Source: Candidatus Gastranaerophilales bacterium
GTDB lineage: Bacteria; Cyanobacteriota; Vampirovibrionia; Gastranaerophilales; Gastranaerophilaceae
Assembly (NCBI GenBank): GCA_947630045.1
Contig: CANRGC010000011.1
Span: forward strand, 1-64,000
Reading direction: 5' to 3'
DNA length: 64,000 nucleotides
Shown here: piece by piece, positions 6,893 to 64,000 of the stretch
How the letters are laid out: each line of letters opens with the position of its first letter
Numbering within the stretch: the first letter of the stretch is position 1
The notes under the pieces: model-generated
Told to the model about the DNA's origin: nothing
Databases searched by the model: none
The model's input: only the letters and a program-made list of their open reading frames with translations
Made by a program: the position numbers and the translations under genes

Positions 6893-8263
6893 TTATCCTA
6901 AGGCTTCAATAATTGCTTTTGCAGCACGTTTTCCGGCGCCCATAGCATTAATTGCGGTTGATTCGCCCAAAGGTGCAACGTCTCCGCCTGCCCAAACTTC
7001 GTTAATTGAAGTTTCGCCTTTTTCGTTAATTATAATATAGCCTTTTTTGTCAGTTTCAAGGTCAAGTGAGTCATTTTTTGCCGAATTTTGGATAATCGGG
7101 TTCGGGCCTGTTCCGAGAGAAACAATAACGGCGTCAAAATCAAGCGTTACATATTCGCCCGTGCCAACGGGTCTTCTTCTTCCGGAAGCGTCAGGTTCGC
7201 CCAATTCCATAATTTCAAATTTCATTGCCTTAACATAGCCTTCTTCGCCTATAATCTCAACAGGCGCATGCAAAAATTTAAAGATAACGCCTTCTTCTTT
7301 AGCGTGTCTGATTTCTTCTTTTCTTGCGGGAAGCTCGTCTTCCGTTCTTCTGTATAAAATATAAACTTCTTTATAACCAACTCTGACAGCCGTTCTTGCA
7401 GCGTCCATTGCAACGTTGCCGCCGCCTATGATTGCTGCCTTTGTGCCGACTTTTAAAGGAGTAGGTGTTGTAAGTTCGTTTGCATGCATTAAATTAACTC
7501 TTGTTAAAAATTCGTTTGCACTGTAAACCCCGTTTAAATTTTCGCCTTTAATGCCCATCATTTTGGGAAGTCCGGCGCCGGAGCATATGAAAATTGCGCT
7601 ATAGCCTTCGTCTTTAAGCTGTTTTAAAGTAACAGATTTTCCGACAACGACATTTTTAATGATTTCAACCCCTTTTTTCTTTAAACCTTCAATTTCTCTG
7701 TCTAAAACGGTTCTTGGCAATCTGAAAGGCGGAATACCATATCTTAAAACACCGCCGACTTCATGGAGCGCTTCGAAAATTGTAACATCGAAGCCTGCGT
7801 TTTTAAGGTCATTTGCAGCGCTCATGCCTGCACAACCGGAACCTACAATGGCAACTTTTTTGCCGTTTGGTTTAATTTCAACATCAACAGGCTTTGAATT
7901 ATCGCCTACATATCTTTCAAGAGAGCCTATTGCAACGGCTTTTCCTTTAATACCAAGCACGCATTTTGATTCGCATTGTCTTTCCTGAGGGCAAACCCTT
8001 CCGCAAACAGACGGAAGCATGTTTGTTTCTCTGATAATTTCACCCGCTTTTTGGATGTTTCCCGCTTTAACCTGTTGAATAAATTCGGGAATGTTAACAC
8101 TGACGGGGCAGCCTTTTTTGCACATAGGATTTTTACAATTTAAACAGCGGCTGGCTTCGAGAGAAGCTTGTTCGCTTGTAAAGTTTTCTTCAACCGCATT
8201 GAAATTCGATCTTCTTTCAACTTTGTCTTGTTCTATAGGTTTTTGACGTTCAATAATAGCCAT
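6893..8263 (-). CDS. gltD: Glutamate synthase small subunit-type NADPH oxidoreductase
   Basis: A 456-residue protein with the GltD layout: an N-terminal cysteine-rich segment (CLNCKNPMCKKGCP) that binds Fe-S clusters, an FAD-binding motif GSGCAGMSAA near residue 142, and an NADPH-binding motif GGGNVAMDAA near residue 278. In glutamate synthase it passes electrons from NADPH to the large subunit. No gltB neighbour is present here, so it could instead serve another partner, as stand-alone GltD-like proteins do. It starts after AGGAGAAC and ends in its own terminator, so it appears monocistronic. Confidence 0.9.
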   Translation of the reverse strand: MAIIERQKPIEQDKVERRSNFNAVEENFTSEQASLEASRCLNCKNPMCKKGCPVSVNIPEFIQQVKAGNIQKAGEIIRETNMLPSVCGRVCPQERQCESKCVLGIKGKAVAIGSLERYVGDNSKPVDVEIKPNGKKVAIVGSGCAGMSAANDLKNAGFDVTIFEALHEVGGVLRYGIPPFRLPRTVLDREIEGLKKKGVEIIKNVVVGKSVTLKQLKDEGYSAIFICSGAGLPKMMGIKGENLNGVYSANEFLTRVNLMHANELTTPTPLKVGTKAAIIGGGNVAMDAARTAVRVGYKEVYILYRRTEDELPARKEEIRHAKEEGVIFKFLHAPVEIIGEEGYVKAMKFEIMELGEPDASGRRRPVGTGEYVTLDFDAVIVSLGTGPNPIIQNSAKNDSLDLETDKKGYIIINEKGETSINEVWAGGDVAPLGESTAINAMGAGKRAAKAIIEALG

Positions 8264-59903: not shown

Positions 59904-60743
59904 ATGTATGATGAGATTTTTTGTTACACTGACAGTGATTTTACGATTGCTTATAAAAACGGTAAGGCAGGGCTTGTTGACGTTAATACGGGTAAGCCCG
60001 TCACGGAATTTGTTTATGACATTATGGAAAACAATCTGCCACGATGCGCTGACGGATATAAAGACAGCAAAATGTTTGAAGATGAATTTGACTTCTTCTT
60101 TGCAATGCATGCCGGAATATGTCAAGATTATTGCACAATGAGCAAAAATTACAAGTGGGGCTTATTGAATAAAAACGGTCAGGTTGTCTTTGATTTTAAA
60201 TATAAATATCCGATACAACTATTAGATATTTTTCGATATATCTCGGGTTATTATATTGTGAAACAAGACGGATATGAAGGCGTAATAGATAAAAATTCAA
60301 ATATAATATTAGAGCCTGTTTTTGACCATATTATGGATGATAAATATTATTGGTCTTGCGAAAAAGATAATCTTTTCGGGCTGGCTGATATTAACGGAAA
60401 AATGGTTGTTGATATAAAATACAATTCGATTTGCGTTTCTTCAACAACAAGACCTTGTTTTATAGCGGAAAAAGAAGCTAAATTCGGGCTTATAACTTTA
60501 AATGATGAAATTATTTCAGATTTTATTTATGACAGCCTTATCAGCGAAAATGACGGCGAATTTTATTTGGCAGACTTAAACGGCAAATATGGGGTGATAA
60601 ATTACGAGGGAAAAATTGTTTTAGATTTTAAATATGATTATATTTCCGCCTGTACCAACAAAAATAATAAGGTTGCTTTTTTGGCAACATATAAAAACAA
60701 AAAGGAACTCTTGAATGAAAACGGAGAAAGGCTGTGGAGTTAA
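59904..60743 (+). CDS. WG-repeat protein, seven repeats
   Basis: A 279-residue protein from ATG 59904 with AAAGGGG upstream. It is nearly all WG (KWG) repeats of about 35-45 residues, each with a core such as KWGLLNKNGQVVFDFKY, YEGVIDKNSNIILEPVFD, LFGLADINGKMVVDIKY and KYGVINYEGKIVLDFKY. Such repeats form beta units for binding, often in secreted or surface proteins, but there is no signal peptide here. It lacks a recognised catalytic domain. Confidence 0.85.
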   Translation: MYDEIFCYTDSDFTIAYKNGKAGLVDVNTGKPVTEFVYDIMENNLPRCADGYKDSKMFEDEFDFFFAMHAGICQDYCTMSKNYKWGLLNKNGQVVFDFKYKYPIQLLDIFRYISGYYIVKQDGYEGVIDKNSNIILEPVFDHIMDDKYYWSCEKDNLFGLADINGKMVVDIKYNSICVSSTTRPCFIAEKEAKFGLITLNDEIISDFIYDSLISENDGEFYLADLNGKYGVINYEGKIVLDFKYDYISACTNKNNKVAFLATYKNKKELLNENGERLWS

Positions 60744-61283: not shown

Positions 61284-61648
61284 ATTTTATTTCCCTTTCT
61301 GTATGTTCTATATTTTAAATCTCAAAGTCATTCTCATCTGATTTTGCATCATTTGAGCTTGAATTTCATTTGGTTTTTTATTGTTAAAATTTAAAAAGTT
61401 TAATTCATTAGAATATCACCTTTAAAATTTTCGCATATAAATAAAATAGATAAAGAACTAAAATTGCCAAATTTAGCAATATTATTAATAATTGTAAAAT
61501 TAAATAATAATTGATATTAAAAATTAATTTAAATCATTTAGTTTAAGAATTAAGTTTTGTATTGATAGTGATATAAAAATATTTCAATTCGTCAAAATTT
61601 GTCGCAATGGTTATTTATAATTTTTTATATAAATTAAAGGAGAAAATT
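61284..61648. other. Intergenic region with a WYL-type operator
   Basis: A 365-bp AT-rich stretch. On the minus strand an open frame of about 35 codons (61308-61415) lacks a start codon and may be a decayed gene end. The right part holds the promoter and palindromic site of the gene at 61649. No RNA gene was recognised. Confidence 0.5.
61589..61621 (+). promoter_or_regulatory. Shared operator and -10 box before the WG gene
   Basis: TCGTCAAAATTTGTCGC (61589-61605) then AAT, seven bases and TATAAT (61616-61621). It differs at two of 20 positions from the site before the WYL gene, and the spacing to TATAAT is identical. Confidence 0.7.
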
Positions 61649-62389
61649 ATGAATAAAACGCAAAGTGAGGCAAAAGATATTATCCAAAATGCTCAAATTG
61701 AAGCTCAAAATATTATAGATCTTGCCTTAAAAAAAGCAAGATTTATACTGAATGAAAGATCGCTTGTAAATAAAATTCGAAAAGAAACCGAATTGATAAA
61801 AGAACAAGCCTTAAAAGACTGTTTAAAAATAAGAGAAGAAAATTCTTTAACCCATTCAATTTACAGTTACCACGAAACTCATTACATTGGTTCAAATCGC
61901 TGGATTGTAAGAAATATAGAAAGTATGAAATACGGTCTTTTAAATGAAAAAGGTGATTTTGTTGTCCCTTGTCAATATGATGATATGAATACAAGCATTG
62001 AAGAATTTCTTGAAGGGGAACAGAAGTGTATTAATGTGATTGTTGATGAATACGGATATAGCGAGGGCGAGACTTGCCGTAATTGTTTAAGCGAAAAACG
62101 AGGGATTATGGATTTAGACGGGAACTTTATAATTGAACCTAAGTATTCGGATTATATTTATTTTAGCGAAGGGCTTGCCGCCGTTTGCATAATTGACGCA
62201 ACTCGGGCGTATGGAGTTAAATACGGCTTTATTGATGAAAATGATAATACAATTATTCCTTTTATATATGACTATGCGGAAAATTTTATTAAAGGCAAAG
62301 CCAGAGTGCTATTAAACAGCGAAGAATATTTTATTGACAAAAACGGCAACAGAATAAGTAAAAAACTCAAAAGAGAAATTATAAGATGA
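61649..62389 (+). CDS. Coiled-coil and WG-repeat protein
   Basis: From ATG 61649 (AAAGGAG upstream) the protein has 246 residues; a TTG-type start 42 bases earlier is rejected. The first 70 residues are an Ala/Glu/Lys-rich helix with a heptad-like pattern (EAKDIIQNAQIEAQNIID), likely a coiled coil. The rest is about four WG repeats (YGLLNEKGDFVVPCQYD, RGIMDLDGNFIIEPKYS, YGFIDENDNTIIPFIYD). Its promoter carries the operator also found at the WYL gene. Confidence 0.8.
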   Translation: MNKTQSEAKDIIQNAQIEAQNIIDLALKKARFILNERSLVNKIRKETELIKEQALKDCLKIREENSLTHSIYSYHETHYIGSNRWIVRNIESMKYGLLNEKGDFVVPCQYDDMNTSIEEFLEGEQKCINVIVDEYGYSEGETCRNCLSEKRGIMDLDGNFIIEPKYSDYIYFSEGLAAVCIIDATRAYGVKYGFIDENDNTIIPFIYDYAENFIKGKARVLLNSEEYFIDKNGNRISKKLKREIIR

Positions 62390-62487
62390 AAAATAATTTT
62401 GCCTAGATATTAATAATTTAATTATCAGATTTATGAACTTTCCTGTGAATACATGCGGGCAAATAAATCATATTGTCTGTTCTGTTG

Positions 62488-62961
62488 TCACCGTTTTCTG
62501 CCGATCAGAAACCCGTGAATAAGCGAATGTTCATATTGGGTTAGCAAAATTAAGTTATCGGTGCTGTTATCGTATCCGTCATTTGTTATATGGTGGATAT
62601 GATAACCGTCATTTTCATCTTTCCCTAAAAATGTAAAAGCAACAAGCTCGTAAATATAATATTTTAAAAGACTTTCATCAGCTAAAGTAAAATAATGCGG
62701 TTTTTCATCATCCTTTTGTTTTTGGATTTTACCCTCATATTTTACCCTGCCTTTATTTGAAATTAAATATTTTGGATTACGAGGATATTCTTTCCAGATT
62801 TCGCCTTTTAAATCATTTTCGCTATAATTCTTAGCGCCATAATTTTTTCTTAATTCTTCTTTTTCTTTTTCATCAAGTTTTTCATATTCTTTCAGTTTTT
62901 GCTGAAGCTCAAAAATATCTTTTAAATATTCTTCCCTGTCTTTATTTCTGTTTAATTCCAT
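62488..62961 (-). CDS. NUMOD4-HNH endonuclease-like protein
   Basis: A 157-residue protein. An N-terminal charged helix is followed by a NUMOD4 motif (EIWKEYPRNPKYLISNKGRV, near 57-76) and an HNH core (HIHHITNDGYDNSTDNLIL, then H), with the metal-binding His and Asn in place. HNH_3 proteins are homing or mobile-type endonucleases. It starts directly after the WYL stop with AAAGGAAAAC upstream, so both are co-transcribed. The 3' end has no clear terminator. Confidence 0.85.
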   Translation of the reverse strand: MELNRNKDREEYLKDIFELQQKLKEYEKLDEKEKEELRKNYGAKNYSENDLKGEIWKEYPRNPKYLISNKGRVKYEGKIQKQKDDEKPHYFTLADESLLKYYIYELVAFTFLGKDENDGYHIHHITNDGYDNSTDNLILLTQYEHSLIHGFLIGRKR

Positions 62962-63915
62962 TTAGTTTTCCTTTATATTTTTATACATTGCTTCAACCGT
63001 TTTTATATATTCATCTTTTAAGATGTTTGGGCTTATAACTTTTACGGTTTCCCGCCATTTTAAAAGTTCCGTTATAATTTCATAACTTCCGCTTGCCCTT
63101 AGTTTTACTTGAATATTCCCATTTCCAAGAGGAGTTATTTTTTGGCTTTTGTGAAAATTATACTTCATTATATCATCTCTGACGCTTTTATCAAATTCCA
63201 AAACTACATCCATTATATCGCCCTGAAAAACCCCGAAAGATTTGTCGCTAAACTCTTGGACATTAAAATTTTCGTCTTTTTCAAAATAGTTATCGGTTAA
63301 CTCAATTTCTTTTAATTTTGAAATTTGATATATCCAAATATCATCAGCAAAAGGATTATATGCCGCAAGATAAATTTTTTCGCCGTAAATCAGCCCGTAA
63401 GGGTTTATAAGATATTTATTATCAAGCTTAATTTGCTTTTGAGATAAAATCGCTTCATTAATTAAACTTATATTTTCAATTGATACATCTTCTCTAAACC
63501 CGATATGAGTGCAATAGGCTTGGTTTAAAAATAATTCTTCGACATCATTTTTTGAATATTTATCAGGATTTATTGCTTTTATTTTTTCTATAATTGCGCT
63601 AAATTCTTTATTTTTGGCGGGTGATTTTTCAAGATTTTTATAATGTTCAAGAAGCGCAAAATCATCTGAATTAAATTTAATTAAAGAATTTAAGCTCCCC
63701 TTTTTTAATCTTCTTCGTTTTTTATTATCGGTTTTATTTTGAACCGTTTCAATATAGTTACCGTATTTTTCAACAATAGCGCTCATCATGCGCTCTGCAG
63801 TTCTTTTGGAACATTCAAAATGCGAAGCAATATCGGATGTTGTAAGCCCCCTATAGCTGTTTTGAAGCATAATAATCAACTCTATAATTTCATCAATTTT
63901 TTTATTTGCGCTCAT
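62962..63915 (-). CDS. WYL-domain transcriptional regulator
   Basis: A 317-residue protein. The N-terminal winged helix (LTTSDIASHFECSKRTAERM, residues 24-43) binds DNA. A WYL domain (about 130-215, with LDNKYLINPYGLIYGEKIYLAAYNP) senses a ligand. A C-terminal WCX-like extension follows. WYL regulators often control phage defence or repair genes, but no defence gene is visible here. AAAGGA precedes ATG 63915. Its own upstream site matches the site at 61589. Confidence 0.88.
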   Translation of the reverse strand: MSANKKIDEIIELIIMLQNSYRGLTTSDIASHFECSKRTAERMMSAIVEKYGNYIETVQNKTDNKKRRRLKKGSLNSLIKFNSDDFALLEHYKNLEKSPAKNKEFSAIIEKIKAINPDKYSKNDVEELFLNQAYCTHIGFREDVSIENISLINEAILSQKQIKLDNKYLINPYGLIYGEKIYLAAYNPFADDIWIYQISKLKEIELTDNYFEKDENFNVQEFSDKSFGVFQGDIMDVVLEFDKSVRDDIMKYNFHKSQKITPLGNGNIQVKLRASGSYEIITELLKWRETVKVISPNILKDEYIKTVEAMYKNIKEN

Positions 63916-63955
63916 AACTTTTCCTTTAATCTGTATTTTATTTTATAACATAATA

Positions 63956-63988
63956 GCGACAAAATTTGTCGCAATATAATCATATAAT
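63956..63988. promoter_or_regulatory. WYL operator and outward-facing promoter
   Basis: GCGACAAAATTTGTCGC (63956-63972) is a perfect 17-bp palindrome. On the plus strand it is followed by AAT, seven bases and TATAAT (63983-63988), so a gene beyond the window end is predicted. The palindrome also lies 41 bp before the WYL start, so it may control both. Confidence 0.75.
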
Positions 63989-64000
63989 TTTTTTTGTCAG

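Follow-up and report, generated by a model that had tools for sequence, protein, structure and literature searches.

The right-hand end of the window, as the 64,000-nucleotide stretch of contig C11 analysed here is called, probably belongs to a self-contained, horizontally exchanged cassette that is placed under a DriD-like WYL activator and includes a putative FtsZ-capping division inhibitor. The contig is part of a Gastranaerophilales MAG of 1,697,426 bases (1.70 Mb) that is 99.8% complete. Judged from the sequence, the regulator itself appears to belong to the known DriD kind, and the novelty would lie in the FtsZ-derived cargo and in the mobile cassette.

Operators, promoters and genes of the locus

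An earlier note had pointed to a pair of sites at 61589-61608 and 63956-63975, matching at 18 of 20 bases and each followed by seven bases and TATAAT; the coordinates and the match proved correct, and the hexamers were found at 61616-61621 and 63983-63988. In general form, CGAC-N7-GTCG is followed at a spacing of exactly N11 by a TATAAT-like -10, with the site sitting where a -35 box belongs. The claim that a good -35 is missing at these promoters also holds, since the operator occupies its place, with N11 to the -10, at all three promoters of the locus. When AAAATTTGTCGCAAT-N7-TATAAT was searched with up to three mismatches, three matches were obtained in the window versus 0.03 expected in shuffles, the third being the minus-strand reading of the right-hand site, which leads to a second -10, that of the WYL gene. 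The right-hand site (candidate operator CGACAAAATTTGTCG, 63957..63971, assigned to no strand) forms, with its flanking G/C, a perfect 17-bp palindrome that is conserved in four related cassettes and lies between divergent promoters. Because it fits the pattern on both strands, one operator would serve two promoters, with TAAAAT at 63940..63945 on the minus strand (11 bases after GTCG in the minus-strand reading) for the WYL/HNH transcript and TATAAT at 63983..63988 on the plus strand for the FtsZ-C-like gene, which runs the other way from an ATG at 64019. A consensus scan offers an alternative view of the WYL promoter, as a plain TTGTCG-16-TAAAAT promoter. The left-hand site, a candidate WYL operator at 61590..61604 on the plus strand, reads CGTC-N7-GTCG, so that the distal half is degenerate (CGTC instead of CGAC) and the -10-proximal GTCG is intact; this proximal part, TCAAAATTTGTCGCA, and the -10 (TATAAT, 61616..61621, plus strand, 11 bases after GTCG) are conserved in three related genomes (G186, G090 and G083). 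The coiled-coil/WG gene would be the one controlled from the left-hand site.

In the whole 1,697,426-base genome, the 15-mer AAAATTTGTCGCAAT was found exactly at these two places only, and the proposal of a local regulatory module therefore survived a search for the motif at unrelated loci of the source genome. A match with one mismatch at C7:68039 was set aside as a coincidence inside coding sequence, and so was C2:20644, the sole extra genome match to the palindrome with up to two mismatches, which lies inside a large autotransporter-like open reading frame. A scan for a half-site with TATAAT gave 26 matches in the source genome versus nine for the reversed control; of six inspected outside the cassette, five fell in open reading frames and one was intergenic and had no partner half-site, for which reasons no further target is claimed in this genome. 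That the palindromes are coincidences, RNA hairpins or terminators rather than operators is hardly credible. The right-hand palindrome does score as a weak stem-loop in the consensus scan, and in two relatives (G119 and G043) CGACCTTTAAGGTCG with a T run behind it resembles a terminator. Nevertheless, this reading is opposed by the excess of matches (three versus 0.03 expected), by their uniqueness in the genome, by the location between divergent starts and by the conservation of a second copy with one half broken, and it is contradicted by the comparative data, in which the site recurs beside diverged WYL genes, as described below.

The left-hand promoter precedes a gene at 61649..62389 on the plus strand, which encodes a protein of 246 aa with a coiled coil (weakly DivIVA-like, Pfam E 0.003) followed by WG repeats (Pfam WG_beta_rep, E 6.9e-24). 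In several relatives, this gene is followed by one for a small, probably membrane-anchored protein, which is absent from the window. A second WG-repeat protein of 278 aa is encoded just left of the cassette (59907-60743), outside the DNA common to other genera and without a CGAC-N7-GTCG operator. Directly behind the WYL gene, on the minus strand at 62488..62961, a NUMOD4/HNH_3 endonuclease-like protein of 157 aa is encoded, with Pfam matches to HNH_3 (E 2e-5) and NUMOD4 (E 3e-4) just under the curated cut-offs. An HNH-type protein occupies this slot or its vicinity in most of the relatives inspected, but in varying variants; by eye, the window copy is closer to that of G138 than to those of the nearest cassettes, and blastn found no DNA of the HNH slot common to the window and the nearest cassettes. 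A PADLOC scan that covered the proteins encoded within the window returned generic WYL models and no effector model.

A DriD-like regulator and the recurrence of the paired sites

The regulator (317 aa, 62962..63915, minus strand) shows a wHTH-WYL-WCX architecture, with the Pfam WCX match above the cut-off and HTH_11 and WYL slightly below it. Searched with the window query, the genome contains a single WYL gene, the one at this locus. When the protein was compared with every PDB chain, DriD alone was reached at E <= 1 (best E 2.8e-27, residues 5-306), and no structure of BrxR, CapW or PafBC was reached at that threshold; in the region of the recognition helix, the window protein reads SKRTAERM and DriD reads GRRTAERM. 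DriD is a WYL activator of Caulobacter that responds to ssDNA and mediates an SOS-independent DNA damage response (PMC12340889, preprint). Its operator has the consensus ATACGAC(X)7GTCGTAT, DriD sites overlap the -35 region at a single distance from the -10, and driD itself has a bidirectional promoter (PMC12340889). The driD and didA promoters printed in the same preprint show a half-site, exactly 11 bases and then, by our own reading of its position, a hexamer that places the conserved G at -14. The division inhibitor DidA was found to be induced by DriD (PMC4211646). At the positions, counted by hand, of the residues with which DriD touches the alpha CTD of the polymerase (R121, R122, P125 and E128), the window protein has K, Y, N and E; with only E128 and the conservative R121K kept, this contact would differ in detail from that of DriD.

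The earlier note had allowed for either repression or class II activation. Of these, activation is favoured, as the operator and its spacing to the -10 match those of the activator DriD. The alternative would be a repressor of the BrxR/CapW type that sits on the palindrome and is released by a ligand to allow derepression. BrxR and CapW are characterised WYL regulators of defence islands (PMC9122589, PMC9122588 and PMC9122601), the operator covers the -35 region close to the -10, and defence genes adjoin the cassette in relatives, all of which a repressor would accommodate. We nevertheless regard a repressor as improbable, considering that the PDB search led to DriD and to neither BrxR nor CapW, that the N11 spacing persists in diverged loci although a repressor could act without a constant distance from the -10, and that the promoters lack a good -35 of their own, as expected of activated ones. 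A PafBC-like promoter, which was the first idea, was dropped in favour of DriD, which fits better and accounts for the palindrome.

The comparison across related genomes that the earlier note had called for revealed that the arrangement with paired sites recurs. WYL relatives were gathered across the family by protein similarity alone (318 kb, L020-L067), and in these loci CGAC-N7-GTCG was counted 31 times versus 0.42 expected, with ten permuted palindromes occurring 0-3 times, although the count of 31 is inflated because some loci overlap, having been drawn from the same genome. Among 36 oriented copies that had been made distinct, a TATAAT-like hexamer stood at N11 in 21, and every other spacing had at most six; a pooled spacing histogram was left out as circular, because it takes in loci fetched by the pattern itself. 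When 288 genomes were scanned with CGAC-N7-GTCG-N11-TANNAT, 41 places remained after the two strands of one palindrome had been merged, and 22 of these lay at most 5 kb from a listed WYL gene versus 0.14 expected, a significance that is indicative only, given the shared ancestry of the genomes and the hand-copied lists. Permuted palindromes and the distance to WYL genes were used as controls since the reversed pattern is an unfair one, seeking the commoner GCTG/CAGC and giving a total of the same order as the matches. The related motif CGAC-N7-GTCG-N11-TACAAT is conserved in six genomes, mostly of genus g14 (G221, G128, G146, G109, G176 and G084), away from listed WYL genes, and may be coding or a further target.

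In relatives whose WYL protein is 50-55% identical, the site precedes the WYL gene and, in most loci, the coiled-coil/WG gene as well. In three of these genomes (G216, G102 and G239), CGACTCTTTTTGTCG occurs twice per locus with the spacer TCTTTTT at both sites, the second being 1.6-2.6 kb from the WYL gene and upstream of a coiled-coil or WG gene, whereas the window genome (G000) and G186 carry the spacer AAATTTT twice per locus. In G158 and G123, the coiled-coil gene adjoins the WYL gene, and two sites are again present. Spacers that are alike within a locus and different between loci are as predicted for regulation by the local WYL protein, and this joint change represents the strongest evidence for its acting at both sites. 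The link that the earlier note had drawn from the WYL protein to the WG gene and to the gene on the right is thus supported in the form of a putative DriD-like local regulon.

The FtsZ-C-like gene and a probably mobile cassette

A plus-strand gene had been predicted beyond the right edge of the window. The contig runs to 65889, 1.9 kb past that edge, and an ATG with a good ribosome-binding site was indeed located at 64019, 30 bp past the -10, opening a plus-strand gene for a 136-aa protein (64019-64429, stop codon at the 64430 boundary). It is followed by a gene for a BioG-like esterase and by a repeat at the contig end; this 152-nt direct repeat (L004:7506-7657 and 7739-7890, 99% identical) probably broke the assembly there. 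The 136-aa copy of the window genome matches no Pfam or NCBIfam model by itself, and its link to FtsZ comes only via its family, diverged members of which match NCBIfam ftsZ with E 3.1e-6 and 5.2e-6 and Pfam FtsZ_C (PF12327) with E 2.2e-5 and 0.0022; these scores fall short of the curated cut-offs. The family profile picks up the source genome's own housekeeping FtsZ (E 2.3e-5) as well as FtsZ-sized frames from about a hundred other genomes, and in a PDB search FtsZ entries filled the top 13 rows, with a best E of 0.003. The alignment to FtsZ begins at the T7 loop and spans the C-terminal domain; the family has no GTPase domain, and the 136-aa protein can be aligned with FtsZ over the T7/C-terminal part alone. 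AlphaFold models of three close copies reached a pLDDT of 50, too poor a model for the fold search, which did not return FtsZ. The gene product looks like a lone C-terminal half of FtsZ. Since the T7 loop of an FtsZ subunit reaches into the nucleotide pocket of the subunit that follows it (PMC5624674), such a lone half, kept without the GTPase half, is a plausible capper or poison of FtsZ. Among the 11 genomes that carry the closest WYL clade, four lack the FtsZ-C-like gene, so that its product would not be the sole effector.

The part of the mobile cassette that lies in the window was delimited by blastn to 61546..64000 (no strand; 88-92% identity, the HNH slot excepted), and it continues to 64430. 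The DNA common to other genera starts at 61546 (G186) or 61592 (G090), that is, at the WG operator, and its right end, 64430, falls at the stop codon that closes the FtsZ-C-like gene. The WG protein is 94% identical in G090 and 93% in G186, which belong to two other genera and whose FtsZ proteins are 75% and 70% identical, and no close copy of the WYL protein was found in the eight other genomes of the window's own genus. Taken together, DNA common across genera, a WG identity far above that of FtsZ and genus-mates lacking a close WYL copy indicate that the cassette most likely moves horizontally. Scans of viral contigs revealed no relative of the WYL or FtsZ-C-like protein and one distant WG protein, hence no sign of a phage-borne cassette. 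In relatives, the cassette is surrounded by a type II restriction-modification pair, DarTG, an HEC-05 protein and a reverse transcriptase.

These surroundings bear on a different assignment of the effector, in which the regulation is DriD-like as well, but abortive infection is carried out by the HNH protein, the coiled-coil/WG protein or both, and the FtsZ-C-like protein, instead of inhibiting division, senses FtsZ-targeting phage proteins or serves them as a decoy. It would agree with the proximity of restriction-modification, DarTG and HEC-05 genes in relatives, with the wider distribution of the HNH slot and the coiled-coil/WG gene compared with the FtsZ-C-like gene, and with the existence of FtsZ-binding phage proteins, which a defence protein can sense together with FtsZ (PMC13423816). 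On the other hand, the HNH matches are weak and stay just under the curated cut-offs, no scanned cassette protein matches a PADLOC effector, as only WYL models were hit, and the best-known DriD target is a division inhibitor. This assignment is accordingly considered rather unlikely, and the FtsZ-C-like protein is retained as the candidate division inhibitor.

Proposed response and comparison with known systems

In the proposed mechanism, the WYL protein would be idle in the resting cell, and ssDNA arising from damage, stalled replication or phage would be bound by its WYL domain. The winged helices would then grip CGAC-N7-GTCG where the -35 box would be, and the protein would recruit RNA polymerase to the -10 exactly 11 bases past the GTCG half-site. 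One palindrome would thereby drive the regulator and HNH genes and, divergently, the FtsZ-C-like gene, and the second site would drive the coiled-coil/WG gene. Finally, the FtsZ-C-like protein may arrest division, the part that DidA plays under DriD, by capping or poisoning FtsZ filaments. No match to LexA was found in the 99.8% complete source genome by a search that was positive in nine of 14 control genomes. More tentatively, an FtsZ-derived T7/C-terminal half may be induced by stress through a DriD-type WYL switch and inhibit division by capping filaments, being carried between genera of LexA-less bacteria by a 2.9-kb cassette.

Other features were observed at WYL loci of the family. A reverse transcriptase beside a DnaB-like ATPase, a pair for which no name was found, recurs at DriD-type WYL loci (L063:11487-13132, L151:1681-3386 and L160:3591-5329). 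Extra FtsZ-like paralogues lie near WYL genes at L160:5419-6351 and L149:201-875, one with tubulin and FtsZ_C domains and one with a tubulin domain only. An AAA protein of 650-680 aa, IetA-like by PADLOC, recurs at L151:6591-8585 and in L148, L149, L154 and L160, its gene standing beside several WYL loci and sometimes directly behind the operator motif; L160, where it is of the 660-aa kind, also encodes a UvrD/PD-(D/E)XK helicase and an McrBC-like protein. By eye, an apparent repeat array and two Cas1/Cas2-like frames adjoin the WYL locus at L147:7900-11875 (G045).

If the proposal is true, the DriD operator code, CGAC-N7-GTCG with N11 to the -10, reaches from Caulobacter to gut Gastranaerophilales and provides a sequence rule for locating the targets of DriD-like WYL regulators in unannotated genomes. 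The organism would then possess an SOS-like division checkpoint with a piece of FtsZ as its brake and no LexA match, and the loci with the reverse transcriptase and DnaB-like ATPase, the full-length FtsZ-like paralogue or the UvrD/PD-(D/E)XK helicase would point to a large class of DriD-controlled response modules.

Among known systems, BrxR and CapW, of BREX and CBASS islands, are likewise WYL regulators in or near defence islands, but they act as repressors and gave no PDB match to the window protein at E <= 1. PafBC of mycobacteria, which adapts sigma at RecA-NDp promoters, is likewise a wHTH-WYL-WCX activator that replaces the -35 and is activated by ssDNA. It differs in being a heterodimer that uses a non-palindromic motif and needs polymerase for DNA binding, whereas the window has one WYL gene and a palindromic site. 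SulA, DidA, MciZ and other division inhibitors would be alike in the stress-induced block of division that is proposed here, and to our knowledge none of this type is derived from FtsZ itself. The closest counterpart is the DriD regulon of Caulobacter crescentus, with its targets didA, bapE, recJ and dnaG, which shares the regulator family, the CGAC-N7-GTCG operator, N11 to the -10, the poor -35 and the bidirectional regulator promoter, as well as one division-related target and one nuclease-like gene. The present locus departs from it in that most alpha-CTD contact residues appear not to be conserved, that the targets are local and encode other proteins (FtsZ-C-like, coiled-coil/WG and NUMOD4-HNH), and that the whole is carried on a mobile cassette.
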